Source of the DNA: Xylanimonas allomyrinae
GTDB taxonomy: Bacteria; Actinomycetota; Actinomycetes; Actinomycetales; Cellulomonadaceae
Direction of reading: 5' to 3'
Length of the DNA: 64,000 nucleotides
Assembly: GCF_004135345.1 (NCBI RefSeq)
Contig: NZ_CP035495.1
Coordinates: forward strand, 2,108,001 to 2,172,000
Shown here: piece by piece, positions 36,243 through 53,757 of the stretch
How positions within the stretch are numbered: position 1 is the first letter of the stretch
Layout: every line of letters starts with the position of its first letter
The notes under the pieces: generated by a model
The model's input: only the letters and a program-made list of their open reading frames with translations
What the model was told of the DNA's origin: nothing
The model's database searches: none
Translations under genes and position numbers: made by a program

Positions 36243-36422
36243 CGCGGGCCTCCCTTGGCGTCGTGCGGGTGTCCATCTTCGTGTCCCGTCCTCGGGGCGA
36301 GGACGCTCGCATGCGGCGCGGCCGGCCACGCCCGAGGTCCGTGTCAACGAAGGACGGCCCCCTGCGATTCCCGAGAGCCGCCGCAGGCCCTCCCCGGGAT
36401 CCGCGGCAAGGCCGTCGCCGGC

Positions 36423-36881: not shown

Positions 36882-37118
36882 GAGCCGCACCGTATCGGGA
36901 CGACGACGAGTCGTAGTGCCCGGAGTCCGCAACCTACGAACCCCGTCCAGCCGGCTGTACACATCGTCCCGGTGGTGCCTGCGACCTGGCGCCGCGACCG
37001 GGCCGCCACCGATCGGTGCCGGACGACGGCGCGCGCGGGACACGGTCGCCCGTGGGAGGCTCAGAGCCGACTGCCCGCCCTCTTTCACGGCGGCGCCCCG
37101 ACGACGAGGAGCGGCACG

Positions 37119-37505: not shown

Positions 37506-37938
37506 GCGCCGGCGGACGCCGACGCCGCATGTGACGTCACCGACATCGCCGCGGCCCGGCGCTCGTGCCGCGGCTGGTCGCCGCGCCCGGTCCGGGGCGA
37601 CCCGGCCGGCAGGCCCGCGCAGGGGCGCGCGGGCCGCTCCACCCTGCGTCACCTGCGCGCGCGCCACGCCTGGCGTGCTGCCCGGGCGACGAGCCGGCGG
37701 CTGACCACCTTCGCCGCACGTGGCGGTCGCATCGCCGGGACGTGACGATCTTGGGGGCCAGACCCCGACGTCACCCGCTCGCGACCGGGGGCTACACTCC
37801 ACCGCGGCGCCGCACCGCGCGCCACGAGTTAAACCTTTTCGCGCCATCGGCGCCCTGTCCGCCCTCCGGGCGTGCTAGGGCGCCGAGCGGTGTCGCGAGG
37901 AGTGCCGCGAGAAGAGCCATGGACCAGGGGGTGGATCA
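37506..37938. other. Intergenic region upstream of the tad cluster
   Basis: 433 bases without a supported gene. Most is above 75% GC. A short AT-richer patch, GAGTTAAACCTTTTCGCG at about 37827-37844, is the only promoter-like stretch and lies about 95 bases before the first gene of the cluster. I see no riboswitch fold or terminator with confidence. Confidence 0.5.
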
Positions 37939-38751
37939 GTGGCGGCCAGCCTACTGGTGTGCGTCGTCGGCGAACGTGGTCGAGGCCTCGACGACGACGT
38001 TCTCGCCGGGGCCGCCGTGCTGCCGCGCACCGGCGCCGACATCGACGCCACCCTGCGGTCGCACGCCGCACCGCACGTCGTCGTCCTCGCCGAGCGGCGC
38101 GACGAGGCGCTCGCCCTGCGCCTGGGGGCCGCCATGACCGACCGCGGCCGCAGCGTCGCGGTGCGCGTCCTGCCCCACGGTCCCGCCGCCGTCCTCGTCC
38201 TCGCCCTCAACGCGGCGCGGCTGGAGTGCGACGCCGGCCAGGTCGTCGGCTGGCTCGACGCGGCGGCGCCCCGCACGTGGAGCGGCGCCTGGGTCCCCTC
38301 GGTCGCCAACCTGGAGGACCCGGCGCCGAGCGTCGCCGAGCACCTACGGGGATACCTGCCCGCGGGCCCGGGCTTCGTCGTCGGCCTCGCGGGTCACGAC
38401 GGCCGCGCCATCGTCAAGGCCTCCGCCGTGCCCGCCCCCGCCGGCCGGGAGCCACGCCCCCACGTGTTCGTCACCGCTGCGACGTCCGACGCCGTCGCGC
38501 GAGCGCTGCTGGGCGCGTCGGGTGCCGCGAACCTCGCTCCGCTGCCGTTCGGCGCCGACGCCGCGGCACGGCGTTTCGGTCACCGTGCCGCCGTCGAGGG
38601 CGTCGCGCTGCCGGCCGACCCGCTGACCCTCGTGCCGCACGTGCGCGAGACCTGCCGCGTGTGCGGGGCGGCGGTCGCCACCGCCTACTGCTCGTTCTGC
38701 CGTGTGCGGCCCGTGTCGCTCGGCTCGCTCGTCCCCGGAGGTGCCCTGTGA
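37939..38751 (+). CDS. Tad-cluster leader protein with C-terminal CxxC pairs, unknown
   Basis: 270 residues (GTG start). No known family is recognised. The N-terminal two thirds alternate hydrophobic strands and helices like a Rossmann-type fold (MAASLLVCVVGERGRGLDDDVLAGAAVLP; PHVVVLAERRDEALALRLGAAM). The end carries a zinc-ribbon-like CRVCGAAVATAYCSFC (about 248-263). It is coupled to cpaB by a GTGA overlap and opens the operon, so it probably acts in pilus assembly or its control. Confidence 0.7.
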   Translation: MAASLLVCVVGERGRGLDDDVLAGAAVLPRTGADIDATLRSHAAPHVVVLAERRDEALALRLGAAMTDRGRSVAVRVLPHGPAAVLVLALNAARLECDAGQVVGWLDAAAPRTWSGAWVPSVANLEDPAPSVAEHLRGYLPAGPGFVVGLAGHDGRAIVKASAVPAPAGREPRPHVFVTAATSDAVARALLGASGAANLAPLPFGADAAARRFGHRAAVEGVALPADPLTLVPHVRETCRVCGAAVATAYCSFCRVRPVSLGSLVPGGAL

Positions 38752-39476
38752 ACCCGCGCCAACGACGCGGCGTCGTCTTCGTGAGCCTGGCGGGCGTGAT
38801 GGCGCTCGTCGTGTTCGTCGCGGTCGCGCTCTTCGTCGCCAGCGTCAACAGCAAGGTCGGTGACCTGGTCACGGTCTACCGCGCCGCGGACGACCTGCCC
38901 GCGTACGCCGAGATCACCGAGGGCTCGGTGACCGGCGAGGAGGTCCCCCGCCGCTGGGTCTCGGACAACGCCGTCGTCCGGCCCGAGGACCTCGTGGGCC
39001 GCCGCGTCGCGTTCAACGTGGCCGGGGGCACGATGCTCAGCGACGACATGCTCGTCCCGGCGTCGGACCTCGCGCCCGACGAGCGCGAGATCGCGGTCAA
39101 CGTCGACTCCGTCACCGGGATCGCCGACCGCGTCGCCCCCGGCGACCGGGTGGACATCTACGCCGTGTTCGCGGACGTGCCCGGCCTGCCCAAGCAGGTG
39201 CGCGTGCTCGTGCGCGACGTGCGGGTCGTCTCGGTGCGCGGCTCGCAGGTCGCGGTCGACGAGGACAGCCCCACGGGCCAGTCGAGCGTCATCCCCGTGA
39301 CCCTGGCGCTCTCGCCGAACGACGCGCTCGCCGTCACGTACGCCGCGTCGTTCGCGGCCGAGGTGCGGCTCGTGGGCCTGCCGGTCGGATCGAGCGAGGA
39401 CCGCGCCGGCGAGAACGGCGACTTCGACGCCGGGGACCTCGGCGGCCAGGCGATTCCGGAAGGGGGCCGGGGCTGA
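38748..39476 (+). CDS. cpaB: Flp pilus assembly protein CpaB/RcpC (SAF domain)
   Basis: 242 residues: one N-terminal membrane helix (VVFVSLAGVMALVVFVAVALFVASV) and an SAF domain (VYRAADDLPAYAEITEGSVTGEEVPRRW, VGRRVAFNVAGGTMLSDDMLV), then the RcpC-type part GIADRVAPGDRVDIYAVFADV with LALSPNDALAVTYAASFAAEVRL. In Gram-negatives CpaB sits in the periplasm near the secretin; in actinobacteria it is anchored on the outer face of the membrane. The GTG at 38748 overlaps the previous stop, and its own stop overlaps the next ATG (TGATG). Confidence 0.87.
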   Translation: MNPRQRRGVVFVSLAGVMALVVFVAVALFVASVNSKVGDLVTVYRAADDLPAYAEITEGSVTGEEVPRRWVSDNAVVRPEDLVGRRVAFNVAGGTMLSDDMLVPASDLAPDEREIAVNVDSVTGIADRVAPGDRVDIYAVFADVPGLPKQVRVLVRDVRVVSVRGSQVAVDEDSPTGQSSVIPVTLALSPNDALAVTYAASFAAEVRLVGLPVGSSEDRAGENGDFDAGDLGGQAIPEGGRG

Positions 39477-41116
39477 TGGCCGGTTCGATCGTCATCGGCT
39501 GCGTGGACCAGACGCTCGCCTACGAGCTGCGCGCGCAGCTGGCCGAGCTCGCCGACGTCGAGATCGTCGGCATCGCCGAGTCGACCAGCGAGCTCGCCGA
39601 GCTCGTCGTCGCGCTCGAACCGAACGTCGTGCTCGTCCACGACCAGCTCGGGCCGGCCCGCGCGCACCAGGTGGTGCGCGACCTCGGTCTGCGCAGGCCG
39701 GGCACCGTGGCCGTCGTCGTGTCGGGCGACCCCGACGCCGAGGCGCTGGCCGCGGCGATGGACGCGGGCGCGCGCGGCGTGCTGACCTACCCGCTCTCGT
39801 TCGAGGCCGTCCAGCAACGCGTCACCAACGCCCTCGAGTGGTCGCGCCAGATCCAGGGCATGCTCACCGCGGCGGGCGACGGCGAGGTGAGCGCGCGCGG
39901 GCGTGCGACCGTCCTGGGGGTGACCGGGTCGAAGGGCGGCGTCGGCACCTCGTCGATCGTCACCCACCTGGCCTGGGACCTGCGCCGCCGCACGCCCGAC
40001 CTGAAGATCGTCGTCGTCGACGCCGACCTCGAGAAGGGCGACGTCACCAGCTACCTCGCCGCCAGCGCCCGCACCTCGCTCGCCGACCTCGCCAAGGTCG
40101 CCGACGACCTCTCGCCGCGCACCGTGGAGGACGCCGTCTACGAGCACGAGTCGGGCCTGCACCTGCTCCTGCCGCCCGACGACGTGCGTGACGTGGAGTG
40201 GATCACGCCCCAGGCCGTCCGCCAGGTCCTGTTCCTGCTGCGCCAGCTCTACGACGTCGTGATCGTCGACGCGGGCGCGCACGTCACGCCCGTCCAGGCG
40301 GCCGTCGTGGAGGTCGCCGACGAGGTCGTCCAGGTCGTCACGCCGGACCTGGTGAGCCTGCGGGCGCTGCGCCGCAACCTGGGCTGGTGGGAGTCGCTCG
40401 GCGTGCGCAAGACGGAGTCGGTCCACGTCCTGGTCAACCGTCGCACGACGTCGGACGAGGTCCAGCTCGAGGCGATCACCCAGCTCGCGCCCGCCGCCGT
40501 CATGACGACGTCGGTGCCGCACGTGGGTCGCCGCCTCGAGACGGCGACGAACTCCCGGGCGCCGCACCTGGCGGACTCGGACGAGTGGTGGAACGCGCTG
40601 CGCGCGGTCGGCGACGAGCTCCACCTGCTGCGGGCGGTCGCCGCTCCCGCCGCCACCGGGTCCGGCCGCCGGTGGGCTCGCTCCGACGAGAGCGCGCCGA
40701 CGACGTCGGCCGGCGCCGCCGCACCCCGCCGGTCGCGCAAGGCGCTGCGAGAGAGCGAGACGGGCGCGGTGTCGCTCGAGCTCCTCGGCGTGCTCCCGGT
40801 CCTCGTCGTGCTCCTGCTGCTGCTCGCACAGGTCGCCGCGACCAGCCTGACCTACGTGTGGGCCGGGCACGGCGCCGCGGCCGCCGCGCACGCCGCCGCC
40901 GTCGACCACCTGAACACGGCCGAGGTGACGGCTCAGGCCCGTGATGCGGTCCCGGCCGGGCTGCGCGACGACGTCGACGTCACGGTCGGCGCGTACGACG
41001 CGGCGGCCGGGGCCGTCGAGGTCACCGTCACCGCGCCCGTGCCGCTGTTCGTCCCCGGCGCGGCGGGCACGCCCTGGGACGTGACGGTGCGCCGGCAGGT
41101 GGTGACCGAGCCGTGA
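39476..41116 (+). CDS. cpaE: CpaE-like ATPase fused to a TadE-like pseudopilin
   Basis: 546 residues with three parts. Residues 1-120 form a receiver-like domain (IVIGCVDQTLAYELRAQLAEL; VAVVVSGDPDAEALAAAMDAGARGVLTYP). Residues 140-400 are a MinD/ParA-type ATPase with deviant Walker A SKGGVGTSS and VVVDADLEKGDV. From about residue 424 follows a TadE-like end: ETGAVSLELLGVLPVLVVLLLLLAQ, a class-III prepilin site with Glu five residues after the cut, then a short external domain. CpaE normally ends before this, so the protein is a fusion. No internal RBS/start is evident for a separate TadE. Confidence 0.88.
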   Translation: MAGSIVIGCVDQTLAYELRAQLAELADVEIVGIAESTSELAELVVALEPNVVLVHDQLGPARAHQVVRDLGLRRPGTVAVVVSGDPDAEALAAAMDAGARGVLTYPLSFEAVQQRVTNALEWSRQIQGMLTAAGDGEVSARGRATVLGVTGSKGGVGTSSIVTHLAWDLRRRTPDLKIVVVDADLEKGDVTSYLAASARTSLADLAKVADDLSPRTVEDAVYEHESGLHLLLPPDDVRDVEWITPQAVRQVLFLLRQLYDVVIVDAGAHVTPVQAAVVEVADEVVQVVTPDLVSLRALRRNLGWWESLGVRKTESVHVLVNRRTTSDEVQLEAITQLAPAAVMTTSVPHVGRRLETATNSRAPHLADSDEWWNALRAVGDELHLLRAVAAPAATGSGRRWARSDESAPTTSAGAAAPRRSRKALRESETGAVSLELLGVLPVLVVLLLLLAQVAATSLTYVWAGHGAAAAAHAAAVDHLNTAEVTAQARDAVPAGLRDDVDVTVGAYDAAAGAVEVTVTAPVPLFVPGAAGTPWDVTVRRQVVTEP

Positions 41117-41457
41117 AGCAGCCAGACGACGAGCGCGGCGCCAGCACGATCGAGGTGCTCGGCGCGATCCCGGCGGTCGTCCTCGTGATCCTCGTCGTGG
41201 TCCAGGTGTGCGCGTTCGTGTGGACCGTCACCGCGGCCGACCAGGCCGTGCGCGACGGCGCCCGCGCGCTGTCCCTCGGCGGGTCTCCCGCGCAGGTCGC
41301 CGCCGCCGTCGAGCGCTCGCTGCCGGGCGGGCTCGATGCCCGGTCCCTGGACGTCGTCGGCGAGCGGGTCATGCTCCAGGTGGACGTGCCCCGGTTGCCC
41401 GTGGTCCCGGCCATGACCATCACGCGTGACGCCTCGATGCCGAGGACGGCGCGATGA
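41113..41457 (+). CDS. TadE-like pseudopilin
   Basis: 114 residues. RGASTIEVLGAIPAVVLVILVVVQVCAFVW is a prepilin-type segment: predicted cut G9/A10 with E14 at position +5, then one helix. A short extracellular domain follows (AADQAVRDGARALSLGGSPAQVAAAVERSLPGG). It is a minor pseudopilin of the Flp pilus. GTG overlaps the previous stop (GTGA). Confidence 0.87.
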   Translation: MKQPDDERGASTIEVLGAIPAVVLVILVVVQVCAFVWTVTAADQAVRDGARALSLGGSPAQVAAAVERSLPGGLDARSLDVVGERVMLQVDVPRLPVVPAMTITRDASMPRTAR

Positions 41458-42803
41458 GGGGGTTCTCGGAGTGGGCGCCGGCCCGGCCGGTGGCGCAGGC
41501 GTCGTCCGCCATCCACCGCAGCGATCTCGACGAGGGGTTGGTTGCGCTGTTCCGGCGCAAGCTGCTCGAGGAGGTCGATCTGCATGAGCTGGCGCGTCTG
41601 GACGCGGGCCAGCGGCGTGTGCGCCTGGAGCGGGTCGTGGCGCACCTGGTCTCGACCGAGGGCGTCATCCTCACGACGCGTGAGCGCAACGCGCTCATCC
41701 GCCGTGTGGTCGACGAGGCGGTGGGACTGGGCGTGCTCGAACCGCTGCTCGCGGACGAGACGGTCTCGGAGATCATGATCAACGGGCACCAGACGATCTA
41801 CGTGGAACGCTTCGGCCAGGTCGAACGCGTCCCGACGGCGTTCGCCTCCGAGGAACAGCTGCGCCAGACGATCGACCGCATCGTCTCGACCGTCAACCGG
41901 CGTGTGGACGAGTCCAGCCCGATGGTCGACGCCCGCCTGCCCGCCGACGACCGCATGCCACGCGGCGCCCGCGTGCACGTGGTGCTCCCACCGCTGGCCC
42001 TGGGCGGACCGACCGTGACGATCCGCCTGTTCCCCAAGGCGTACGGCCTGGACGAGCTGCTCAACCGGCGCAGCCTCGACCAGACCACGGCCGAGCTCCT
42101 GGCGGCGTGCGTGCGGGCGCGGCTCAACATCATCGTCTCGGGCGGCACCTCGTCAGGCAAGACGACGCTGCTCAACGCACTGTCGGCGTTCATCCAGCCG
42201 CGTCAACGCATCATCACCATCGAGGACGCCGCCGAGCTCTCACTCTCCCAGGAGCACGTGGTGCGCCTGGAGACACGCCCGGCCAACGTCGAGGGCCGCG
42301 GCCAGGTCACGATCCGTGACCTGGTCCGCAACGCGCTGCGCATGCGCCCCGACCGGGTCATCGTCGGGGAGGTCCGTGGCGGTGAGGCCCTCGACATGCT
42401 CCAGGCCATGAACACCGGCCACGAGGGCTCGCTCGCGACCGTGCACGCCAACACCACGGTCGACGCGCTGATCCGCCTGGAGACGCTCGCGTCGATGAGT
42501 GACGTCGAGGTCCCCTTCACCGCCCTGCGCGACCAGGTCAACGGCGCGGTCGACATCGTCGTCCAGCTCCTGCGCGGCTCGGACGGCGCCCGCCGGGTCG
42601 TCGCCGTCGACTGGGTCTCCTCACGACACCGCGAGGACTTCCGCGTCGACCACCTCATGCACTGGGACCCCGAAGGCATCGGCGAGTCCGGCACACGCGG
42701 ACGCTTCGTCGTCCACCCACTACCCCCACCCCTGCTCGACCGCCTCCGCATCGCCGGGGAGCCGCTGGGGACGCCGCTGGCCAGCCAGGGAGCGGTCTCA
42801 TGA
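41454..42803 (+). CDS. tadA: Pilus assembly/secretion ATPase TadA (CpaF)
   Basis: 449 residues of the type II/IV secretion ATPase family. The N-terminal domain includes [25 protein letters not shown]; the ATPase core has Walker [11 protein letters not shown] (about 229-238), the Asp box [12 protein letters not shown], Walker B with [38 protein letters not shown] including the His box. It energises Flp pilus assembly at the inner face of the membrane. ATGA overlaps with both neighbours. Confidence 0.96.
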
Positions 42804-43726
42804 TCCTCGCGCTCGTCCTCGCCGGGTCGGTGCTGCTGTGCGCCTTCCTGGTCGCCGGGCTCGTCGAGCTCGCGACCGTCGCCCAGCGCCGCCGCGACCT
42901 GGTGCGCGCACTGGAGTCGGAGGACGACACCACGTTCGCCCACCGGCTCACCCGCTGGGACCGGTCCTTCCGCCGCACCCGGCCGGGGCACTGGGTCGAG
43001 CGGCAGCTCGTGCTCGCCGGCGAGGAGCACCGCCGTCCGCTCGTCGTCGTCGCCGTCGCCGTCGCGGGCGGCCTCGCACTGGGCTGGGTCCTCGCGGTCA
43101 CGCTCGCGCCGGCCTTCGGCGCCGTCGGCCTGGTCGCCATCGTCATCGGGACTCGTTGGTACCTCGATCGCGGGCGTGAGCGGCGTCGCGAGCAGTTCGT
43201 CGCGCAGATGCCCGAGCTCGCACGGGTCCTGTCGAACGCGACGAGCGCGGGCCTGTCGATCACCGGTGCGATCGGCGTCGCCGCGTCCGAGCTCGCCGCG
43301 CCGGCCGGGGCCGAGCTGGCCCGCGTCTCGTCGCGTCTGCGGTTCGGGGCCGGGCTGGAGGACGCAATGAAGGAGCTCGAGGAGCGCCTGCCCTCGCGCG
43401 AGGTCGCGGTGCTCGTCTCCACCCTGCTGGTCAGTGCCCGCAGCGGCGGCTCCCTGGTCACGGCGTTGCGGGACATCGCCGACACGCTCGAGGAGCGCAA
43501 GGAGGTGCGCCGCGAGATCCGCACCACGCTCGCCGAGTCCACCTCGACCGGCTACCTCGTCATCCTGCTCGGGTTCGGCCTGCTGTTCCTCCTCAACACC
43601 ATCCAGCCCGGCACCGTCCAGGCCATGACGACCCACTGGGTGGGCCAGCTCGCCCTCCTGGTCTCCGGCTCCATGTTCGCGGGCGGGTTCCTGCTCATCC
43701 GCCGCATGACGAGGCTCGAGCCGTGA
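42800..43726 (+). CDS. tadB: Tad pilus inner-membrane protein TadB
   Basis: 308 residues: an N-terminal helix, two central helices (about 85-120), a GspF-type cytoplasmic domain ([81 protein letters not shown]) and C-terminal helices. With TadC it forms the membrane platform on which TadA works. It overlaps tadA and tadC by four bases. Confidence 0.93.
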
Positions 43727-44637
43727 CGCCGCTGCTGCTCATGGTCGTCGGCGGCGCGGCGGCCGCGGCCGCGACCGTGCTGCTGCTCGTCGGCCTGCGC
43801 TGGGCGCGCTCGGACGCGCTGGACATCCTGGAGGTCGACGACCTCACGCTGCTGCGCAAGGAGCAGCGGCGCCGGGCCGAGGGTGAGGGCCTGATCTCGC
43901 GGCTCGCGCGCGCCCAGGTGCCCCGGCTTCGCCGCTTGCTCGGCCCGGCTCGCATCGCGAGCCTGCAGCGGCGGATCGACGAGGCCGGCCGCCCCGACGG
44001 GCTGACCGTCGACCTGTTCCTGCAGCAGTGCGCGTTCTGGGCGGTGCTCGTGCTGCCGATCGTGTTCCTGTTCCTCGTCCAGGGGAACTTCCTCATGATC
44101 CCGCTGTGCGCCGTCGTCCCCGTGCTGCTGCCCCTGGTGCGGGTGGCGGCCGAGCAGCGCAAGCGGCGCGAGCGCATGGAGCGCGACCTGCCCGACTTCC
44201 TCGACGTGCTCGCCGTGACCGTCATGGCCGGTGTGACGTTCCGCGCGGCGCTCGCCCGCGTGGCCGCCCGCTTCGACGGACCCCTCTCGGAGGAGGTCAC
44301 CCTGACGCTGCACCAGATCGCCAACGGCGCCTCGGTGCGCGAGGCGTTCGACGACATGCGGCGCCGCTCCTCCTCGGAGCCGGTGTCGCAGTTCGTGGGC
44401 GCTCTGCTCCAGTCCCAGGAGCTCGGCGCGCCGTTGGCCGAGTCTCTCGGGCAGATCGCCGAGGACATCCGGCGCGACTCGGCGCAGCGGCAGAAGCAGG
44501 CGGCCGCCAAGATGTCGCCCCGGGTGACGCTGGTCAGCTCGATGATCCTGCTGCCCGCGGCCCTGATCCTGGTGCTGGTGGGCCTCGTGCTGGGCCTGGA
44601 CGTCGACTTCGGCGCCCTGCTGGGCGGCCTGGGATGA
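43723..44637 (+). CDS. tadC: Tad pilus inner-membrane protein TadC
   Basis: 304 residues, a GspF-type protein paired with TadB. Segments: an N-terminal helix, two helices at about 100-140, the domain [109 protein letters not shown], and the last helix. It is coupled to the following histidine kinase gene by an ATGA overlap. Confidence 0.93.
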
Positions 44638-45809
44638 CGACGCACGTGGTGGCGAGCGACGCCGACGAATACACCCGCCGGTTCGTCGGGGTGAGCATGC
44701 TCGTGCGCCTGCTGGCGATCCTCGTCGCGTTCGTCGGGCTCGTCGGCCAGACGATGACGCTGCCGGTGCTCGCGTGCGCCGTCGCGCTCACCGCGAGCGG
44801 CCTGGCGGTGCTGATGTCCGAGCGGGTCGCGGCGTTCCTCGCCGAGCACCCGTTCGCGTTCGTCGCCGACGTGCTGGTCACGCTCGCCGTCATCGCCGTC
44901 CTCGGCACCGAGACCCCGTTCGTCCTGGTCACGATCTCGACGGCGATCGTCGTCGGCTTCCTGCTGCAGCCCGCGCTCGCCGCGCTGTGCGCCGTCGTGC
45001 TGGTGGCCGGCTACCTGCTCGTCGAGACGCTCCAGCCGCCCGCGGTCGCAGGGTTCATGCTCACCGCAGGGGTCCCCGCTCTGTACGTCGGCGCGGTCGC
45101 CGTCGGCGGAGCCGCGCGCCACGCCCACCGGGCGCACGTCGCGGCGTCCCGCCAGGCGGGCGAGGCTCTGCTGGCCGCCGCCGCGGCCGAGGAGCGCGCC
45201 CGGCTCGCCCGCGAGATGCACGACTCGCTGGGCAAGACGCTGCACGGGATCGCGCTGGGCGCCCAGGCGCTGCCCCGCGTCGTGGAGCGTGACCCCGCCC
45301 GGGCTCAGGGCTTCGCCGCCGAGCTGGCCCAGGGCGCGAACCGCGCGGCGCTCGAGGCCCGCCAGCTCCTGGCCCGCATGCGCGCGGACCAGCCCGACCG
45401 GCCGCTCGCCGAGGTGCTGCGCAGCCAGTGCGACGCCTGGCAGCGGGAGTCGGGCGTGCCCTGCCACTTCCGCACCGACGGCGCCGTCGACCTGTCGACC
45501 TCCGCGCGCTACGAGCTCCTGGCGATCGTGGCCGAGGCCCTGGAGAACGCCCGCCGCCACGCAAACGCACGGCTCGTCACCGTCCGTCTCACGGGCCACG
45601 CCGACGGCGGCCTGGAAGCCGTCGTGACCGACGACGGCGCCGGCTTCGTCGTCGGCCCGCGCGCCCGGAGCCCGCACGGGCACTTCGGCCTCACAGGCAT
45701 GGCCGAGCGAGCGGCCTTCGCCGGGCTCTCGCTCCAGGTGCGTTCGACCCCCGCAGGCGGCACCACCGTGGTCGTCTCCCACCCCGGGCACGCAAGGGAG
45801 GCCGCATGA
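44634..45809 (+). CDS. Sensor histidine kinase (NarL/LiaS type) of the tad cluster
   Basis: 391 residues. Six hydrophobic helices fill residues 20-160, with no large external domain, so it probably senses the membrane. The HisKA_3 dimerisation domain has LAREMHDSLGKTLHGIALGAQ with phospho-acceptor H196; the ATPase domain has IVAEALENARRHANA and VTDDGAGF, GHFGLTGMAERA. It is placed between tadC and the pilin and coupled to the response regulator (ATGA). It likely adjusts pilus expression. Confidence 0.92.
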   Translation: MTTHVVASDADEYTRRFVGVSMLVRLLAILVAFVGLVGQTMTLPVLACAVALTASGLAVLMSERVAAFLAEHPFAFVADVLVTLAVIAVLGTETPFVLVTISTAIVVGFLLQPALAALCAVVLVAGYLLVETLQPPAVAGFMLTAGVPALYVGAVAVGGAARHAHRAHVAASRQAGEALLAAAAAEERARLAREMHDSLGKTLHGIALGAQALPRVVERDPARAQGFAAELAQGANRAALEARQLLARMRADQPDRPLAEVLRSQCDAWQRESGVPCHFRTDGAVDLSTSARYELLAIVAEALENARRHANARLVTVRLTGHADGGLEAVVTDDGAGFVVGPRARSPHGHFGLTGMAERAAFAGLSLQVRSTPAGGTTVVVSHPGHAREAA

Positions 45810-46543
45810 CGACGGGCACCGTCGGCGTCGTGATCGTCGACGACAACGCCGTGATCCGCATGGGCCTGCGGGCGCTGCTGGGCACCTCGGACCGCGTCGA
45901 GGTCGTCGGCGAGGCGCAGGACGGCGAGGAGGCGGTGCGGGTCGTCACGGAGCTGAGCCCCGACGTGACGCTGCTCGACGTCCGGCTGCCCGGTGGCCGC
46001 GACGGGGTCCAGGTGCTGTCCGCCATCCGCGACCGCACGCGCGTCCTCATGCTCACGTCCTCCGAGTCCCCCGACGTCGTCCATGCGGCGCTGACGGGCG
46101 GCGCTCACGGGTACCTCGTCCACGGCCACTTCGCGGCCGAGGAGCTCGAGCAGGCCGTGCGGACGGTCGCCGCAGGCGGGATGCTGCTCGCCGGCCCCGC
46201 CGCCGAGCTGGTACGCCGGGGCCTGCCGGCGCCGACCCCGCCCCATGCCCCGCGCGTGGGAGCGCAGGCCCTCGGGCTGTCGGTGCGCGAGGTCGAGGTG
46301 ATGGACCTCATCGCCGACGGCCTGGACAACCGCACCATCTCCACCGTGCTGTTCGTGTCCGAGAAGACGGTGAAGAACCACGTCAACCACATCTTTGCCA
46401 AGCTCCGCGTCCAGACGCGAGCGGAGGCGATCGTGGCCTGGCTGGGCCCGGAAGTGGGCCCGGAGGTGGGCCCGGACATGAGCCCAGGCATGAGCCCAGG
46501 CATGAGCCCACGGACCCGCGACGGGCACGACCAGGCTCGTTAA
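45806..46543 (+). CDS. LuxR-type response regulator of the tad cluster
   Basis: 245 residues. A receiver domain (VVIVDDNAVIRMGLRALLG; phospho-acceptor D58 in TLLDVRLPG) and a C-terminal LuxR helix-turn-helix (LGLSVREVEVMDLIADGLDNRTISTVLFVSEKTVKNHVNHIFAKL, about 165-215). The last 30 residues are odd: GPEVGPEVGPDMSPGMSPGM, from a 12-bp DNA repeat at 46444-46508. It probably acts on the promoter in front of the Flp pilin (66-base gap downstream). Confidence 0.92.
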   Translation: MTTGTVGVVIVDDNAVIRMGLRALLGTSDRVEVVGEAQDGEEAVRVVTELSPDVTLLDVRLPGGRDGVQVLSAIRDRTRVLMLTSSESPDVVHAALTGGAHGYLVHGHFAAEELEQAVRTVAAGGMLLAGPAAELVRRGLPAPTPPHAPRVGAQALGLSVREVEVMDLIADGLDNRTISTVLFVSEKTVKNHVNHIFAKLRVQTRAEAIVAWLGPEVGPEVGPDMSPGMSPGMSPRTRDGHDQAR

Positions 46544-46608
46544 GTTCCTCCACGTCACGAAGGAAGCCGGTCATCGCGTCGGCGCCGAAACCCTGAAAGG
46601 GACCCACC

Positions 46609-46809
46609 ATGACCCGCACGTTCCTCACCGCAAAGGCTCGTCTCCAGGCTGCGCTCGCCGGGCGCGAGCGAGGCGCCAGCACCATCGAGTACTTCGGCGT
46701 CATCGTCGTCGCGGTCATCCTCATCGTCGCGCTCATCGGCGCGTTCACCACGTTCGACCTCGGCGGCAAGGTCTCCACCGAGCTTGCGAAGATCCAGTCG
46801 GGTTCGTGA
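46609..46809 (+). CDS. flp: Flp-type major pilin
   Basis: 66 residues. A basic leader to G22, then ASTIEYFGVIVVAVILIVALIGAF: predicted prepilin-peptidase cut between G22 and A23, with the conserved Glu-Tyr pair at positions +5/+6. The mature 44-residue subunit is one long helix with a short tail, the standard Flp size. The RBS AAAGGG lies ten bases before the ATG. It has its own gap upstream, fitting separate strong expression. The GTGA stop/start links it to the TadG-like gene. Confidence 0.94.
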   Translation: MTRTFLTAKARLQAALAGRERGASTIEYFGVIVVAVILIVALIGAFTTFDLGGKVSTELAKIQSGS

Positions 46810-47549
46810 TCCGAGCGACGGACGACGAGGGCGCGGCCAGCAGCGGAACGCTGGCCGTCGCCCTCGTCGGCGTCGTCGTCCTGCTGTTCGTGGCGACGAT
46901 CCCGCTGCTGAGCGGGATCGACCAGTCCGCCCGCGGGCGGACGATGGCGGAGTCGGCGGCGCTCGCCGGTGCCGAGTCGATCCGCACCGACCTCCTCACG
47001 ACCCTCGACGACGTCCGGCAGGGCTGGCTCGTCGGGGACAGCGACGTGCACCAGCACTGGCAGCCCGACGGGATCTTCGCCCTGTCCGGCTACGGAGCGG
47101 CCTCGAGCTACGCCGCACGGAACGACGGCGAGCTCCCGGCCGACTGGTACCGGTTCGACGTCGGCCACGGAATCGTGGACGTCCGCGCACGCCTGACCGA
47201 GGCGGCCCCCTCGGGCGGACACACCGAGTCCACGGCCAGGGCCCGGCTCGGGGTCGACCCCACGTCGTGCCGGTTCCGGGCGGACCGGACGGTGACGTGG
47301 GTGACCCCACCGCCGCCGAGCCCGACGCCCACCCCGACCCCGACCCCGACCGAGACGTCGACGCCCACGCCCTCGCCCACCCCGACGGAGACCCCGGAGC
47401 CTCCGCCGCCGTACGCGGTGTACTCGCCCTGGGTGTTCAGCTTCGGGTGCGAAGGGACGCCGACGGTCAGCGGCGGCGACTTCACCGAGGTCCGGGACGA
47501 CGCGATCGACCTGCTGCGGGACGCGGCCCGACCGCGCCTGATCGACTGA
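46806..47549 (+). CDS. TadG-like pilus accessory protein with Pro/Thr-rich linker
   Basis: 247 residues. The N terminus EGAASSGTLAVALVGVVVLLFVATIPLL is a prepilin-like helix lacking the +5 glutamate. The external part starts with ARGRTMAESAALAGAESIR, as in TadE/TadG proteins. Residues about 170-205 are PTPTPTPTPTETSTPTPSPTPTE-like, a glycosylation-prone or wall-crossing linker, before a small C-terminal domain with CEGTPTVSG. Cotranslated with flp. Confidence 0.75.
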   Translation: MIRATDDEGAASSGTLAVALVGVVVLLFVATIPLLSGIDQSARGRTMAESAALAGAESIRTDLLTTLDDVRQGWLVGDSDVHQHWQPDGIFALSGYGAASSYAARNDGELPADWYRFDVGHGIVDVRARLTEAAPSGGHTESTARARLGVDPTSCRFRADRTVTWVTPPPPSPTPTPTPTPTETSTPTPSPTPTETPEPPPPYAVYSPWVFSFGCEGTPTVSGGDFTEVRDDAIDLLRDAARPRLID

Positions 47550-47614
47550 GACCAGCCCCACCCCCGTCCCGCGGACGGGGAACGCGTCACCGGACGCCGG
47601 AAGGAATCGACACG

Positions 47615-49192
47615 ATGACGGGACGACACAGGCTCGCCGCCATGGCGCTGCTGGCCGGGGCAGCCCTGCTCCTGGGGGCGTGCACGGCCGAGGAGACCCC
47701 CGGCGGCGACGCGACGGACGCCACGACGAGCGGTGCCGCCTCCGGGCCGAGCGCCGCGCCGAGCGACCCCGAGTCCGTGGTCGAGTCCTTCCCGTTCGTC
47801 GCCGGCGGCGGCGAGGCGCGGGTGGACGTCCACCCCCTGGTGCACACGGGCGACCACCTCGTGCTGACCCTCGACATCACGCCCACCGCCACACCCGGCG
47901 GAGGGGACGACCTGGCGCTGCTCGACGTGCTCTACGACGACGTCACCTCGCGCCCCGCCGCCGGGGGCGCGATCCGCCTCGTCGACCTCGCGGGTGGGAC
48001 CGTCGCCCTGCCCGCGGTCGACGCCGACGGCCGCGCCGTCGGCGCTCCCGCAGATCTCATGACCGTCCCCGGCGACGGCGTGCGCGTCCAGCGCGCCTAC
48101 GCGGCGCCGGCGGGCGACCCCCCGTCGCTCGGCCTGCTCTTCCCCGGCCACTACGTGCCCGAGGTCCCCGTGATCGACGCCGGCCCGCCGCCCGCGTCGC
48201 TCACCGACGACGGCGCCCCCGAGATCGACCTCACGGCCGTCGCCGACGCACCCCACCCCGAGCTCAACCGGTACACGGCCGAGCTGGACGGCGCCGTCCA
48301 GGTGCTCGAGTCGACCGAGACCGTCACGGTCAGCCTCGGCGGCGACGTGCTGTTCGCGTCCGGCTCGGCCGACCTCGGCCCGCAGGCGCAGGCGGCGCTC
48401 GAGGCCGCGGTGACCCACCTGTCGGGCCGTGCCGGTGGCGTGATCGACGTCGTGGGCCACACCGACGACGTCGGCGACGACGCCTCCAACCAGGACCTGT
48501 CCGAGCGCCGTGCCGCCGCCGTCGCCGCGGCGCTCGGAGGCCTGGTCGACACCGGCACGTTCTCGCTCCGGCCCTCGGGCCGCGGCGAGACCGAGCCGTT
48601 CGTCGCCAACGACACCGACGCCCACAGACAGCTCAACCGCCGCGTCGTCCTCACGCTCACGTCCCAGGTCACCACCCCATCGACGGTGACCGCCCAGGGC
48701 GAGCTGCCGCCGTTCGAGGGCGGCCCCGTCGCCACCGGCGCCGAGGGCGTCGAGGTGGGAGCCAACCGTCGCTTCCGCATCACGGTCCCCGAGGCGACCC
48801 GCGTCGGCGACTCGCTCCTGGTGGTCGTGCGGGCCGAGGCCCTCGACACGGAGGTGGGTTCCGACTTCGGCGTCGGCGGGCTGACCGGCGTCGGCTCCTA
48901 CCGGGGCGACACGACCGTCCTGCCGCAGCACGCGCTGAGCGTCGCCGTCGTCAGCGGCTCGACGGCGGTCTACCCGTACGACTACACGCTCGGGACGAAC
49001 CCGGGCGGGCTCGACGTGTGGCGCCCGCTCGCCGACCTCGACACGCTGCGCCGCATCGACGGCGGTCAGACGCTCACTTTCGTGGGCCTCTACCCAGGGA
49101 TCGCCGACACCGACACCATCGCCGTGCAGGTGCGGCAGGCCCTCGGCACCGACGCCTTCCGGCTGACCGACATCCCCGTGTCCGGGAGCTGA
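47615..49192 (+). CDS. OmpA-domain lipoprotein in the tad cluster
   Basis: 525 residues. A lipoprotein signal ends at LLLGAC (C23). A beta-rich domain follows (about 60-230), then an OmpA-like peptidoglycan-binding domain (about 236-350: VTVSLGGDVLFASGSADLGPQAQAAL, IDVVGHTDDVGDDASNQDLSERRAAAV, RPSGRGETEPFVANDTD, NRRVVLTL), and a last beta domain. The lipid anchor and wall-binding domain would tie the pilus machine to membrane and peptidoglycan. The RBS GGAAGGAA precedes ATG 47615. Confidence 0.88.
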   Translation: MTGRHRLAAMALLAGAALLLGACTAEETPGGDATDATTSGAASGPSAAPSDPESVVESFPFVAGGGEARVDVHPLVHTGDHLVLTLDITPTATPGGGDDLALLDVLYDDVTSRPAAGGAIRLVDLAGGTVALPAVDADGRAVGAPADLMTVPGDGVRVQRAYAAPAGDPPSLGLLFPGHYVPEVPVIDAGPPPASLTDDGAPEIDLTAVADAPHPELNRYTAELDGAVQVLESTETVTVSLGGDVLFASGSADLGPQAQAALEAAVTHLSGRAGGVIDVVGHTDDVGDDASNQDLSERRAAAVAAALGGLVDTGTFSLRPSGRGETEPFVANDTDAHRQLNRRVVLTLTSQVTTPSTVTAQGELPPFEGGPVATGAEGVEVGANRRFRITVPEATRVGDSLLVVVRAEALDTEVGSDFGVGGLTGVGSYRGDTTVLPQHALSVAVVSGSTAVYPYDYTLGTNPGGLDVWRPLADLDTLRRIDGGQTLTFVGLYPGIADTDTIAVQVRQALGTDAFRLTDIPVSGS

Positions 49193-49196
49193 TCAC

Positions 49197-50579
49197 GTGC
49201 CCGTCCCCGATCACGCAGCGCGCCGAGTCCACGCGGGCGAGCGCGGCGCCGCCTCCATCGAGTCGCTCGGCGCGATGACCGTCGCCGTCGTCCTGGTCAT
49301 CGCGCTGACCGTGAGCTTCCTGGCCTTCGACCTCGGCCCGAAGATCGCGGAGCAGCTGTGCCGCATCGGCGCGGCCGTCTCGGGCTCCAGCGCCGCCGCG
49401 TGCGGCGACGACCGCTCCCCGGCCCGCTCGGCGGAGGACTACGTCCCGCCTGCGCCTTGCGTCGTCACGGGAGACGGCAGCGCCGTCAACGCCTCGGTCG
49501 CGGTCGCCGTCCAGGTCGACATGGACACGTCGTTCCTGGTCGAACAGCTCAACGACGGCCAGATGCGGATCACCGTGCAGAACTCCTCGGGAGTCGGGGC
49601 CGAGGTCGGCGTCGGCTTCGACGTCTCGGCCACCGTCGACGACAACCGCTACGGTGCCGCGGCCTCCGCGGGCGCGACGGCAGGCATCACCAGCCGGATG
49701 GGCGACGTGTACTACGCGTCCACCCCGGACGAGGTCGACGACGTCATCTCGGCGCTCATGACCGACGCGACGAAAGACGCCATCGCCGGCAGCTCCGGGC
49801 CCGTCCGCGCCGTCGTGGACTGGGGTGCCGGGCTGTTCGGCGCGGACCCCCGTGAACCCGACGCGACGTTCCAGGTGGCCGGTGTCGACGCCGCCGGTTC
49901 CGCGGCGGTGACGCTCGTGACCATGGACGCGAGCGCAGCCGTGGAGGCGGGCATCTACGAGGGTCGCACCACCTACAAGGACGGCCGCACGACCGACGTC
50001 TACACGGCCTCCGCCTCGGGATCGGCGCGCGCCTCGGGCCTCCTCGGCAACGGCCTCGAGACCGACGACGTGTCGGCCGTCGCGTCGTTCTCGGGCACCA
50101 TCACCGTCGAGATCGACAGGGATGAGGACGACAACCCGGTGGCGATGCGGCTCGTCCGCAACGGCATGGCCGCAGCAGACGTGTCCGCGTGGTCGAACGA
50201 GAAGGTCCCCCCGCGCTACACCGAGACGACCTGGCAGGTGCCGCTGGACTCCACGTCGGACAAGCAGACCGCGGCCCGGGTTCTGTGGGGTCTGGGCATC
50301 GACGCCGCCGGCGTCAACGACTCGCTGGGCCCGATCGACCTGAGCGGCCTCAACTACGCTGCGTCCTGGCAAGACCTCCACGACCTGGCCAAGGCGGACG
50401 GCTACGACTGGACGCAGGAGTACGTGAGCGACTCCTCGACCTACGGCGGCACCTTCGATGCGAAGTGGCTGCTCGAGGCAGGGCTCTCAGGCGGGTACAC
50501 GACGACGAGCCGGTCGGCCACCGGCTACACCTACTGGAACGGCGTCGAGTATGTCTCGCGCCCTGCGTGCGTCGCCTGA
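49197..50579 (+). CDS. Large protein with Flp-type prepilin N terminus, unknown ectodomain
   Basis: 460 residues. HAGERGAASIESLGAMTVAV is a class-III prepilin signal: cut G17/A18 with E22 at +5, followed by one helix ending FLAFDLGPKIAEQL, nearly the same pattern as the 66-residue pilin. The other about 415 residues are an external domain of unknown fold, rich in Ser/Thr/Asp and beta-strand-like (VAVAVQVDMDTSFLVEQLNDGQMRITVQNSSG). Cys pairs at about 55-88 may form disulfides. It may be a pilus tip or adhesin subunit. GTG start. Confidence 0.8.
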   Translation: MPVPDHAARRVHAGERGAASIESLGAMTVAVVLVIALTVSFLAFDLGPKIAEQLCRIGAAVSGSSAAACGDDRSPARSAEDYVPPAPCVVTGDGSAVNASVAVAVQVDMDTSFLVEQLNDGQMRITVQNSSGVGAEVGVGFDVSATVDDNRYGAAASAGATAGITSRMGDVYYASTPDEVDDVISALMTDATKDAIAGSSGPVRAVVDWGAGLFGADPREPDATFQVAGVDAAGSAAVTLVTMDASAAVEAGIYEGRTTYKDGRTTDVYTASASGSARASGLLGNGLETDDVSAVASFSGTITVEIDRDEDDNPVAMRLVRNGMAAADVSAWSNEKVPPRYTETTWQVPLDSTSDKQTAARVLWGLGIDAAGVNDSLGPIDLSGLNYAASWQDLHDLAKADGYDWTQEYVSDSSTYGGTFDAKWLLEAGLSGGYTTTSRSATGYTYWNGVEYVSRPACVA

Positions 50580-50598
50580 CATGAAGGGGCAAACGAAG

Positions 50599-51213
50599 AT
50601 GAGGACGTCGATCCTGCGGGGGGCCGCGACGCGGTCGACCGCGCTGATGTCGGCCGCCGTGCTGTCGACCACGCTGCTGCTGACCACGCTGCTGCTGACC
50701 GCCTGCGGCGGGGGCAGCCCCGAAGCCGCACCCGTCCCGGACGACTGGCAGACGTTCACCGCGGGGCGCGTGGTGGTCAAGGCCCCGCCCACGTGGCGGA
50801 AGCTCGACGCACCGTCGGCCGGCGACGGCACCACGACGACGACCTTCGGCCTGCCCGACGACGGCAGCATGGTGCGCCCCGGCGTCAGCGTCACGTCCGT
50901 GCCGCATCCGGACCGTGACGCGGCGGACGAAGCGTCCGCCCTGGTCACACGCGAGAAGGCCACCAACGGGGCCAAGGACGTGACGACCACGGAGGTCGAG
51001 CGGGCCGGCGCGACATCGGCCGTCGAGGTCACCTTCTGGCAGGAGTTGCGATCCGCCGAGGGCCCCGTCGAGGTTGCCCACCACTGGCTCGTCGCCGACC
51101 TCGACGACGGCAGCCAGGTGCTCGTCGGCGCCCTGGGCGCTCGCGCGGACTTCGAGGAGCTTCCGCTCGACGAGGCGATCGCGGCCGTCGACCTGCGCGG
51201 CGGCGACTCGTGA
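50599..51213 (+). CDS. Lipoprotein of the tad cluster, LpqN-like size
   Basis: 204 residues from ATG 50599 (an alternative ATG 50581 adds six residues; AAGGGG upstream of 50599 favours the later start). The signal has the repeat TTLLLTTLLLT before the lipobox cysteine (LLTACGGG). The mature part begins VPDDWQTFTAGRVVVKAPPTWRKL and resembles small actinobacterial PsbP/LpqN-type lipoproteins in length and strand pattern, but I cannot confirm the family. Coupled to the next gene by GTGA. Confidence 0.72.
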   Translation: MRTSILRGAATRSTALMSAAVLSTTLLLTTLLLTACGGGSPEAAPVPDDWQTFTAGRVVVKAPPTWRKLDAPSAGDGTTTTTFGLPDDGSMVRPGVSVTSVPHPDRDAADEASALVTREKATNGAKDVTTTEVERAGATSAVEVTFWQELRSAEGPVEVAHHWLVADLDDGSQVLVGALGARADFEELPLDEAIAAVDLRGGDS

Positions 51214-51728
51214 CCCCCGGCCCTCGGGTCCCGCTGCGCGCGTCCGGCTACCTCGCCATGCTGGCCGTGGTCCTGTTCGCCGTCGTCGGCACGATCATGC
51301 TGGTCTCCGGGGACACGCCTCGGGGCCCGTTCCGCGACGCGCTCGTGGTGGCCGGTGGCCGTGACCCGGTGCCCGCGGGAACCCAGAGGGTGGTCTGGGG
51401 CGTCGGCGCGGCGCTGGTCCCCGCCGACGTCGTCTGCACGGTCACCCTGGCGACGGGCGAGACGCGCGACGTCGACACCACGGCGCTCGGTCCCGACCGG
51501 CCGACGGCGCAGGTCGCCGGGTTCGGGACGGCGACCCAGCTCGGCGTGACCATGCGGACCCGCGACGGCGACCTGTCCTGCGCGGGCGGCGGGCTCGAAC
51601 GGTTCGCCACCGCCGACAGACGTGGCGGCCCGCCGGGTGCCGTCCTGGCCGTGTTCTTCTACGTCCTGGCGGCCGTGGCCGCGCTGTGGGCGCTGGCCAC
51701 CCTCGGGCTCCGGCGGTCGGCACGATGA
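51210..51728 (+). CDS. Two-helix membrane protein of the tad cluster, unknown
   Basis: 172 residues: helix at about 12-33 (YLAMLAVVLFAVVGTIMLV), an external domain of about 105 residues with two cysteines (ADVVCTVTLATGE; GDLSCAGGG) likely joined, and a C-terminal helix (AVLAVFFYVLAAVAALWALATLGL). No family is recognised. It is coupled to both neighbours by four-base overlaps, so it is part of the pilus operon. Confidence 0.7.
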   Translation: MTPGPRVPLRASGYLAMLAVVLFAVVGTIMLVSGDTPRGPFRDALVVAGGRDPVPAGTQRVVWGVGAALVPADVVCTVTLATGETRDVDTTALGPDRPTAQVAGFGTATQLGVTMRTRDGDLSCAGGGLERFATADRRGGPPGAVLAVFFYVLAAVAALWALATLGLRRSAR

Positions 51729-52132
51729 GGCGAGACGCCTCGGCCGCCCGCCTCATCGCCTCCGGGGCGGGGATCGTGCTGTCGTACGCGGTCGTCCCCT
51801 TCGCGATCCTTGTCGTCATCGCGGTCCTCACCCGCTCGACCAGCGACCTCGACGGGGTCCTCGCGCTCAAAGCCGTCGCGATCACCGCATCGCTCGTCGC
51901 GATCACCATGGCTACGGACCGCCGCTGGCACCCCGCCGTCCTGCTCGGCCTCGCGGCCGCAGGGCTCGCGGCGAACCCCTCCACGTGGGCCGCACGGACC
52001 TACCTGGCCCAGCTGTGGGTCGAGCCGGGTCCCACGGCGATCATCATCGACGCGATCGCGTGGCTGGCCGTCGTCGGGCTCGTCGTCGCCGTCCGGCGCC
52101 GGCATGCGGCGCGGGTTCGCGCGCGCTGCTGA
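51725..52132 (+). CDS. Small membrane protein ending the tad cluster, unknown
   Basis: 135 residues with four hydrophobic helices (about 12-35, 45-62, 70-85 and 105-122) and an arginine-rich tail (VRRRHAARVRARC). ATG 51725 overlaps the previous stop. No family is recognised. It is the last gene before the accessory region; the next 40 bases lead into a conjugation-gene remnant. Confidence 0.7.
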   Translation: MRRDASAARLIASGAGIVLSYAVVPFAILVVIAVLTRSTSDLDGVLALKAVAITASLVAITMATDRRWHPAVLLGLAAAGLAANPSTWAARTYLAQLWVEPGPTAIIIDAIAWLAVVGLVVAVRRRHAARVRARC

Positions 52133-52175
52133 CCCGCGTCACTGTCATGCTGAGTCCCGCGCCGTCCCGCTCCGC

Positions 52176-52512
52176 GTGGGCGCGCAGCACGGCACAGACC
52201 GGCTCCTCGCGCTCGACGAGATCGGCAACCTCGCGCCCCTGCCTGCTCTCCCCCACCTCCTGTCCGACGGCGGAGGCTCCGGCATCACCAGAATGCCCGT
52301 CCTGCAGTCCATAGCCCAGGCTCGATCGGAGGGGCGTCGACGACGCCGGGACGATCTGGGACTCCTCGATCGTGAAGGTGCTGCTCGGCGGCTGGTCGGT
52401 TGCCAAAGGCCTCCAGGACGTCTCGGCGCTGAGTGGCGAGCGCGACGAGAGCGCAGACACGGTTCTCAAAGCTCACACCTCGCAGCTGACCGAGGTGCGC
52501 GCCTGGCGGTGA
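52176..52512 (+). pseudogene. Remnant of conjugative coupling protein (VirD4/TraG, TraM-recognition domain)
   Basis: Only the C-terminal part remains, in two frames. The first frame gives LLALDEIGNLAPLPALPHLLSDGGGSGITRMPVLQSIAQAR (Walker B DEIGN region); after a shift near 52325 the second gives AGTIWDSSIVKVLLGGWSVAKGLQDVSALSGERDESADTVL and ends EVRAWR at 52512. The sequence is characteristic of type IV secretion coupling proteins of actinobacterial integrative elements. The N-terminal 300 or more residues are missing. Confidence 0.8.
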
Positions 52513-52618
52513 TTCATGCGATCGAGGCGCCACGGAGGGCACCTGGGCCGGGCGGCCGGCCCACACATCAACAAGAAATCGATGCCTGGCGCGGCCTCTG
52601 AATTGAAGCTGTACGGTC

Positions 52619-53152
52619 ATGGGCATGACGCCCAGAACTCCGAAAAGAATGGCGCCCCTGATTGCGCTGACCTCTGTGCTCGTCGCTTGTCTCAGCCTCA
52701 CGGCTTGCTCGAGCGGCGGCAGTGACGACGCTGCGGCGGACTCGACGGCCGCCACCACGACGGTGCCCACCGATGGCACGACCGCTGGGAGCATCGACGC
52801 CGAGGCTCCTGCGGGCGACGCACCAGTGGATCTCAGCGGGGAGTGGAAGCAGACTAACTCGAACGCTGACGATTCATGGCAAGCCGCGACGATCACCGAC
52901 GCGACCATCCAGATCAACTGGGTCAGCGACAACGGCGACACGAAGTCGCTCTACTGGGCTGGAACCTTTGAGGTCCCGGCGGACTCAGCCGACTCGTTCA
53001 CCGTCGTGTCGACAAACGACCACGAGCAGACTGACGCCGCAATGCTCGCTTCATCGGACGACACGAAGGACTTCACATACAAGGACGGCGAAATCTCCTA
53101 TGAGGTCTCGGCGCTCGGCACGACGACGACGGTGAGGCTCCAGCGCCAGTGA
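52619..53152 (+). CDS. Small lipoprotein, unknown
   Basis: 177 residues (ATG 52619; ATG 52625 is also possible). The lipobox LSLTACSSGG gives the acylated cysteine. A Thr/Asp/Ala-rich linker follows, then a compact beta-rich domain (VDLSGEWKQTNSNADDSWQAATITDATIQINWVSDNGDTKSLYWAG) of lipocalin-like strand pattern. The base composition is clearly less GC-rich than the tad genes, suggesting recent acquisition. No family is recognised. Confidence 0.75.
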   Translation: MGMTPRTPKRMAPLIALTSVLVACLSLTACSSGGSDDAAADSTAATTTVPTDGTTAGSIDAEAPAGDAPVDLSGEWKQTNSNADDSWQAATITDATIQINWVSDNGDTKSLYWAGTFEVPADSADSFTVVSTNDHEQTDAAMLASSDDTKDFTYKDGEISYEVSALGTTTTVRLQRQ

Positions 53153-53323
53153 GGAACTCTTTGACGCGGTACCGCAGGACACGCACGTCCAGGGCCACCC
53201 ACGTCACAGCCCCTTCCTCCATGCGCCCAATCGCCTCGCGTTGCTTCACGGTGGACTCGCCGGCCGAGACGAGCCCTTGATCGAGCATCGGCGTGAGCCG
53301 GGCAGGCGCGGCGGGCATGAGCT

Positions 53324-53757
53324 TCAGCGTCGCCGCGCGACGATGAGTCCGTCCCAGCCCTTGACGCCGACGGTGTGAACTGCGGTGGCGTCGAGTTCGG
53401 GGTGGGCGGCGATTTCGCCTGCGACGGCGCGCACTTCCACCCTCGGATCGCCGCTGTCCGGTCGTGTCACTGCGCCGTCGCGCACGACATTGTCGATGAT
53501 GATGACCGCGCCGCGGGTGGTGAGTTTGAGCGCTGCGTCGAGGTAGGCGGGGTTGTTCGGCTTGTCAGCGTCGATGAAGACGAGGTCGAAGGGCTCCGTC
53601 TGGCTGCGGATGAGTTGTTGTGCTGAGTCTGCGGCGGGGCCGACGAGCACATCGATGCGGTTCGCCTAACCTGCGCGCTCGAAGTTTGCTCGCGCGACTT
53701 GTGCGTTCTCTTCTGCCAGTTCGAGCGTCACAACGTGACCGTCCGCGCGAGCAGCCT
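53324..53757 (-). pseudogene. Truncated class I O-methyltransferase with in-frame stop
   Basis: The C-terminal half is clear: ADSAQQLIRSQTEPFDLVFIDADKPNN with AVIIIDNVVRDGAV, the Methyltransf_3 family. Upstream ADGHVVTLELAEENAQVARANFERAG continues in the same frame but ends in TAG at about 53667-53669, where a leucine codon (TTG) is expected before ANRIDVLVG. The SAM-binding N terminus (DIGTYTGYSAL-type motif) is missing, replaced by the fragment described next. Non-functional. Confidence 0.75.

Follow-up and report, generated by a model that had tools for sequence, protein, structure and literature searches.

The stretch of DNA analysed here, 64,000 nucleotides of Xylanimonas allomyrinae (the window), contains a gene for a 460-residue protein which begins like a short Flp pilin and continues into a large ectodomain. 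What does such a protein contribute to the Tad machine beside which it is encoded? The features that bear on this question are collected in Table 1.

Table 1. Features of the window and, in the lower rows, other proteins headed by the same type of stem.
Feature	Position or locus	Strand	Basis or remark
CpaB/RcpC, CpaE (TadE-like C-terminal extension), TadE	37872..41457	+	PF16976, SAF, ParA-like, PF07811
TadA ATPase	41454..42803	+	PF00437, E 5e-66
TadB (42800-43726), TadC (43723-44637)	42800..44637	+	PF00482
Histidine kinase, LuxR-type response regulator (within the operon)	44634..46543	+	Domain matches
Short Flp pilin, 66 aa, no Cys	46609..46809	+	Weak DUF4244 / Flp_Fap matches, E 0.01 / 0.045
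TadG-like membrane protein	46806..47549	+	Position and N-terminal helix; no Pfam match; homologue in second locus
OmpA-family lipoprotein	47615..49192	+	PF00691, E 2.5e-13; conserved in other tad loci
GGGAG, Shine-Dalgarno-like	49184..49188	+	Sequence; 8 nt 5′ of GTG start
Large-ectodomain Flp-type prepilin gene	49197..50579	+	460 aa; GTG start 49197, stop 50577-50579
Leader peptide, 17 aa, ending in Gly17	49197..49247	+	Predicted prepilin-peptidase cut before Ala18
Hydrophobic pilin helix, residues 18-43, Glu at +5	49248..49325	+	Model (low pLDDT here); invariance
Cys hairpin C55...C69 after the helix	49359..49403	+	Sequence; C55/C69 pairing putative
Ectodomain, predicted β-barrel	49458..50573	+	AlphaFold2 model; Foldseek, VIA-align; C88 and C458 invariant
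Partner lipoprotein, predicted PsbP/Mog1 fold	50581..51213	+	Lipobox LTAC; model pLDDT 86; Z 15.7 to 3lyd
Third module gene, membrane protein with external domain	51210..51728	+	Homologues after lipoprotein in L005, L037, L039, L041
Calpain-like stem proteins	L067, L068, L070, L073, L092, L125		
Metallopeptidase-like stem proteins	L069, L071, L072, L075, L078		
GDSL-like stem proteins	L084, L085, L088, L089, L091		
RHS stem proteins	L077, L079, L080, L135		
HINT stem proteins	L087, L130, L131		
EndoU stem protein	L128		
Tox-REase-5 stem protein	L083		

The open reading frame shows the same coding pattern as its neighbours (G+C by codon position 0.66/0.54/0.93) and homologues align with it over the full length, so the gene is real. 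Its N-terminus, ERG(17)|AASIE(22), with Gly at -1, Glu at +5 and a hydrophobic stretch following, is the class III signal of type IV prepilins. An earlier note on this DNA had reported this signal and a likeness to the Flp pilin. The signal was found where it had been placed, and the likeness proved measurable, with 43% identity over residues 13-61 to the 66-residue Flp (E 2e-7 in a whole-genome search); the Flp gene, located 2.4 kb upstream, encodes the closest short protein to this N-terminus. With 460 residues and a β-rich ectodomain the protein is not a Flp major pilin, which would have about 50-80 residues and be fully helical. Its build, a pilin stem with a separate large module, is that of a modular minor pilin. 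The range of 100-200 residues given earlier as usual for minor Tad pseudopilins does not hold for all of them, since CpaL and KilN4 have been described as large minor pilins (PMC12607857, PMC12075869).

No match to the 460-residue protein was found among Pfam, NCBIfam or PDB sequences, and the PDB gave nothing usable, whether queried with the single sequence or with profiles. A match of the helix to an NCBIfam photosystem peptide was taken as a chance hit. No RNA family was detected when positions 36000-53500 were scanned with Rfam. The prepilin peptidase family (PF01478) has two matches in the genome (G000:C1:3433126-3433452 and 2224272-2224511), one of them just upstream of a second tad locus and none inside the window.

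We then looked at the distribution of the protein. A whole-genome search detected homologues in 26 of the 222 genomes of the same family; carriers include Cellulomonas, Actinotalea and Antribacter and, more distantly, Aeromicrobium. In profile searches full-length relatives also came from the rest of the order and from other classes; two wider searches gave long matches in roughly 16 of 34 and 10-12 of 38 genomes, the others being stem-only. As nine of the ten other genomes of the same genus that were searched showed no homologue and one (G002) has a distant one, the pilin is dispensable. The protein belongs to a phylum-wide family that has no Pfam or NCBIfam name, and the class of large actinobacterial pilins postulated in the earlier note is supported by these homologues. 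The family was not described in the open-access papers searched.

Using a profile of the ectodomain, which is blind to the stem, 57 open reading frames were retrieved. The G-x4-E motif and a hydrophobic helix were present in all 56 that have a visible N-terminal region, that of the remaining one being cut off by the end of the DNA examined; the resemblance to Flp is therefore beyond chance. Homologues lacking the prepilin motif, which had been named as evidence against a pilin, were looked for and none was seen among these 56. Gly17 and Glu22 are invariant in all three alignments (A1, A2 and A3), and down to about 20% identity so are Gly25, C55, C88 and C458. The invariance at -1 and +5 supports export by the prepilin route, as proposed earlier from this motif. 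Exactly four mature cysteines are conserved in all members of A2 (27/27), and weak DUF4244 matches occur in eight of these 27 homologues (best E 0.0012). In one subfamily (L008, L024-L028) several in-frame hydrophobic helices precede the prepilin motif, as if a membrane domain had been fused, and the family gene of L021 appears to be frameshifted near its 3′ end, where two overlapping open reading frames match.

The operon around the gene is a complete tad locus, with the order CpaB/RcpC, CpaE, TadE, TadA, TadB, TadC, kinase, LuxR-type regulator, Flp, TadG-like protein, OmpA-family lipoprotein, pilin, lipoprotein and membrane protein. At 3.43-3.45 Mb this genome has a second tad locus, paralogous to the first and identical in gene order, which encodes a 438-residue paralogue, 48% identical to the 460-residue protein, again followed by the lipoprotein. 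Comparison of the two loci gave identities of 97% for TadA, 84% for TadB, 83% for TadC, 70% for Flp, 61% for the OmpA-family lipoprotein, 48% for the large pilin, 43% for the TadG-like protein and 39% for the membrane protein. The surface parts thus diverge fastest, while TadA of the machine is nearly identical. In both loci CpaE appears to continue in frame into a pseudopilin segment of TadE type (GAVSLELLG and a helix; 39476-41116 in the window, 3944-4888 in L005). In the second locus CpaE (L005 3237-4438) and the lipoprotein (14379-14902) are each split over two frames, which may reflect decay or sequencing error.

Linkage to tad genes was also observed in other genomes. Because 195 of the 198 genomes of the phylum have a T2SSF match (TadB/TadC), presence of T2SSF was dropped as a co-occurrence test and the distance to tadBC was used as the measure. 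The earlier note had suggested looking for homologues beside other actinobacterial tad loci, and for 42 of the 59 family genes the same contig had a T2SSF match at a distance of 3-16 kb (29 of 40 genomes), which is a lower bound as contigs are broken. As is typical of a Tad minor pilin, the gene in the window is encoded with the tad machinery; some copies of the family stand alone. Copies outside tad loci were seen in L037, L038 and L041, and those of L037 and L041 are stand-alone cassettes of pilin, lipoprotein and membrane protein, which recall the several separate tip clusters of Myxococcus (PMC12075869).

Structure prediction had likewise been suggested as a check. The AlphaFold2 model of the protein, built on an alignment of only 18 sequences and of low confidence in the helix region, has a pLDDT of 77 and a pTM of 0.73. 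It consists of two helices and, after them, a series of twelve long antiparallel strands into which two helical segments are inserted, giving a β-barrel-like ectodomain. The closest PDB folds found with VIA-align were outer-membrane β-barrels: the autotransporter domains of EspP and Hbp (Z 14.9, 210-217 residues, rmsd 4.6) and CymA (Z 13.9). Outer-membrane β-barrels were also the top matches in Foldseek (E 3e-8), but with low TM-scores (0.13-0.28). An up-and-down antiparallel β-barrel is thus a property of the model (Z 14.9, 217 residues, rmsd 4.6), and because of the low TM-scores we grade a barrel ectodomain as likely and not as proven. The host family is Gram-positive and has no outer membrane, so that an outer-membrane role in the producing cell would be unexpected.

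In the model the twelve strands are located between C88 and C458, which bracket the first and the last strand; this is where a barrel-closing disulfide would be placed, and such a bond is predicted. The strands have one hydrophobic face (A, V, G, L) and one polar face. Conservation was similar on the inner and outer side of the barrel (entropy 2.07 vs 2.00, p 0.73) and did not separate the two. Pfam gave no vWA match in the protein or its homologues, so it is not a vWA pilin of the CpaL/PilB type, and no toxin family matched the ectodomain. When the model was compared with a library of viral structures, weak β-rich matches were obtained, mostly to ssRNA phage maturation proteins, and these were rejected.

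The lipoprotein encoded directly downstream has no Pfam match. Its model superimposes on 3lyd (Z 15.7, 139 residues, rmsd 2.6), which points to a PsbP/Mog1 fold, and also matches MTC28, LpqN, DcrB, the Eag chaperones and the T6SS immunity proteins Tsi3 and Tli4 (Z 8.5-15.7). In 24 genomes we found 33 confident matches to this lipoprotein, corresponding to 32 genes as one is split over two frames. All 32 are located within 550 bp downstream of a family gene on the same strand, and there is no orphan among them, with the limit that divergent orphans could escape the profile. A confident lipoprotein match follows 32 of the 40 family genes in the same genomes. The other eight comprise the gene of G002 and seven whose neighbours were checked; six of these seven precede a lipoprotein-like open reading frame too divergent for the profile, and none was seen after the gene of L024. 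An adjoining lipoprotein was also present in distant relatives (L056 and L058-L061); the lipobox scan, being based on a regular expression, gives too low a count of divergent lipoproteins. We conclude that the lipoprotein is an obligate partner of the pilin with the predicted barrel. In L038 the homologue of the third gene of the module comes directly after the pilin.

The stem is not confined to this family. Profile matches restricted to the stem head long proteins of other actinobacteria with unrelated ectodomains: a calpain-like protease, a DUF6782 metallopeptidase, a GDSL lipase and an alpha/beta hydrolase, and, of toxin type, RHS, PT-HINT, PT-HINT with a CdiA-CT RNase A, EndoU and Tox-REase-5. 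These domains were confirmed with Pfam on representatives and assigned by eye for the others. The G-x4-E motif is present in 87 of 87 distinct stems, although the search profile itself favours it, and the long stems share the Cys hairpin, which the short Flp pilins inspected lack. Each of the four stem-protein loci examined (L136-L139) contains tad genes within the stretch covered (CpaB, CpaE, TadA/B/C, kinase, regulator, Flp). In L138 an RHS protein occupies the slot after Flp, where the window has the group of the 460-residue protein. In L136 a HINT-RNase A protein is followed by a family member and its lipoprotein, this module being separated from the tad genes by a few kb that contain housekeeping genes.

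For the stem at large this is the pattern of polymorphic toxins, a constant N-terminal part with varied toxin C-termini; the ectodomain in the window has no toxin match. We tentatively suggest that the Flp-type stem (G-x4-E helix and Cys hairpin) may be a general carrier, with which actinobacterial Tad machines would display or deliver cargo including polymorphic toxins, proteases and lipases. The pair in the window would then be one non-enzymatic module, possibly an effector and its protector.

A rival explanation would make the protein an antagonistic effector, with the stem as trafficking domain, the barrel as a toxin that acts on membranes and is taken along or delivered by the Tad machine, and the lipoprotein as immunity protein. 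A Tad-like machine of Myxococcus does kill by contact (PMC12075869). Toxin-type proteins with the same stem adjoin tad operons in several cases, divergent pilin-lipoprotein pairs occur in tandem, a genome having as many as three or four, and the fold predicted for the lipoprotein is that of two T6SS immunity families. The company of the stem and the existence of PsbP/Mog1-fold immunity proteins keep this explanation alive. However, polymorphic toxin systems usually include orphan immunity genes, and the 24 genomes yielded none. The ectodomain is one conserved fold throughout the phylum, with neither a swapped catalytic tail nor a toxin family match, and no enzyme-type stem protein was seen to have this lipoprotein. 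The missing orphans and the single fold weaken a toxin-immunity pair to the point that we consider it rather unlikely.

Less probable still is a purely structural protein that initiates or caps the Tad pilus and binds no ligand, its barrel being a plug or a priming scaffold. The position of the gene inside the operon would suit such a role, and minor pilins prime the assembly of type IV pili (PMC10191384). A general assembly factor is nevertheless hard to reconcile with homologues in 26 of 222 family genomes as against T2SSF in 195 of 198 phylum genomes, with several divergent copies per genome and with copies outside tad loci. An ordinary surface protein, with the helix as a type II signal anchor and an incidental likeness to Flp, could account for copies away from tad genes and for the upstream helices of the L008 and L024-L028 subfamily, and processing is deduced from sequence, but an anchor needs neither Gly at -1 nor Glu at +5, both invariant at about 20% overall identity and present in 56/56 homologues, and the strong clustering with tadBC makes this explanation very improbable.

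Taken together, the 460-residue protein is probably a modular minor pilin of the Flp type, belonging to a Tad (type IVc) machine and forming part of a contact device. This is supported by the stem motif in all 56 homologues found by the ectodomain, the embedding in a tad operon twice in one genome and the linkage of 42 of 59 genes to tadBC, as well as by the four cysteines (27/27), the barrel model, the pairing with the lipoprotein, the divergence of the surface parts and the peptidase genes. A prepilin peptidase would remove the leader of 17 residues, and the helix would then pack into the inner membrane and the Flp filament. Outside the cell a disulfide-bonded hairpin and the predicted twelve-stranded β-barrel would be displayed, the ends of the barrel being stitched by C88-C458. 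Display is most likely at the pilus tip, since to judge from its size such bulk would not fit the pilus shaft. The lipoprotein most likely chaperones or anchors the pilin during assembly. This arrangement has precedents in large modular minor pilins located at the tips of Tad pili (PMC12075869, PMC12607857) and in pilins with grafted modules (PMC8179133). The module would act in cell contact, which may mean adhesion or antagonism. A purely adhesive or structural role is made less probable by the toxin-type domains that the same stem carries elsewhere, and the tip adhesin of the earlier note is further complicated by the obligate lipoprotein and the predicted β-barrel.

Modular pilins are known already; the surveys found in the literature start from T4P motifs or from pilins of the TadG/KilN type and do not cover actinobacterial proteins with a Flp stem. 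The roles of Tad pili in Gram-positive bacteria are little known, and a family with a fixed lipoprotein and a predicted β-barrel is a defined and testable surface component. Tad pili may display or deliver more than adhesins. Since RHS, HINT and nuclease domains headed by the stem occur next to tad operons, it can be tested in culturable relatives of Cellulomonas whether Tad pili carry toxins. If the stem is indeed a general carrier, Gram-positive bacteria would have a route for delivering polymorphic toxins by means of pili.

Several known systems resemble single parts of the module. Polymorphic toxin systems also combine one trafficking-like N-terminal stem with many toxin-type C-termini, and the portion of the survey PMC3482391 consulted does not mention pilin, prepilin or Flp. 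Autotransporter translocators and other outer-membrane β-barrels (3slj, 3aeh, 4d5b; Z up to 14.9) are closest to the modelled ectodomain, which differs in having no sequence relationship to them and another exporter. LpqN, MTC28, DcrB, the Eag chaperones and Tsi3/Tli4 have the fold modelled for the partner lipoprotein, whereas the partner has no Pfam match and a fixed pairing with a pilin gene. In the modular type IV pilins, such as PilB of the monoderm Streptococcus sanguinis, a module is also grafted on a pilin stem, and a survey keyed on the T4P motif IPR012902 counted 1,200 such proteins in 264 architectures (PMC8179133). In contrast to these, the protein in the window has a Flp-type stem, a different module and no Pfam family match. 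CpaL of Caulobacter (PMC12607857) is likewise a large Tad minor-pilin-like protein with a class III signal, but has a vWA domain with MIDAS, which Pfam did not detect in the window protein. The KilN/TadG-type minor pilins at the Tad tip of Myxococcus (PMC12075869) differ in phylum, the window protein belonging to the Actinomycetota. Its pilin part is a Flp-type helix without the β-stranded pilin head, the domain added to it is predicted to be a β-barrel and is paired with a lipoprotein of PsbP/Mog1 fold, and no KilLM-like trimer was identified for it. The Kil system nevertheless shares with the module the prepilin motif, the large extra domain, the Tad machine, several paralogous modules per genome, some of them off the main tad locus, and a proposed location at the tip.
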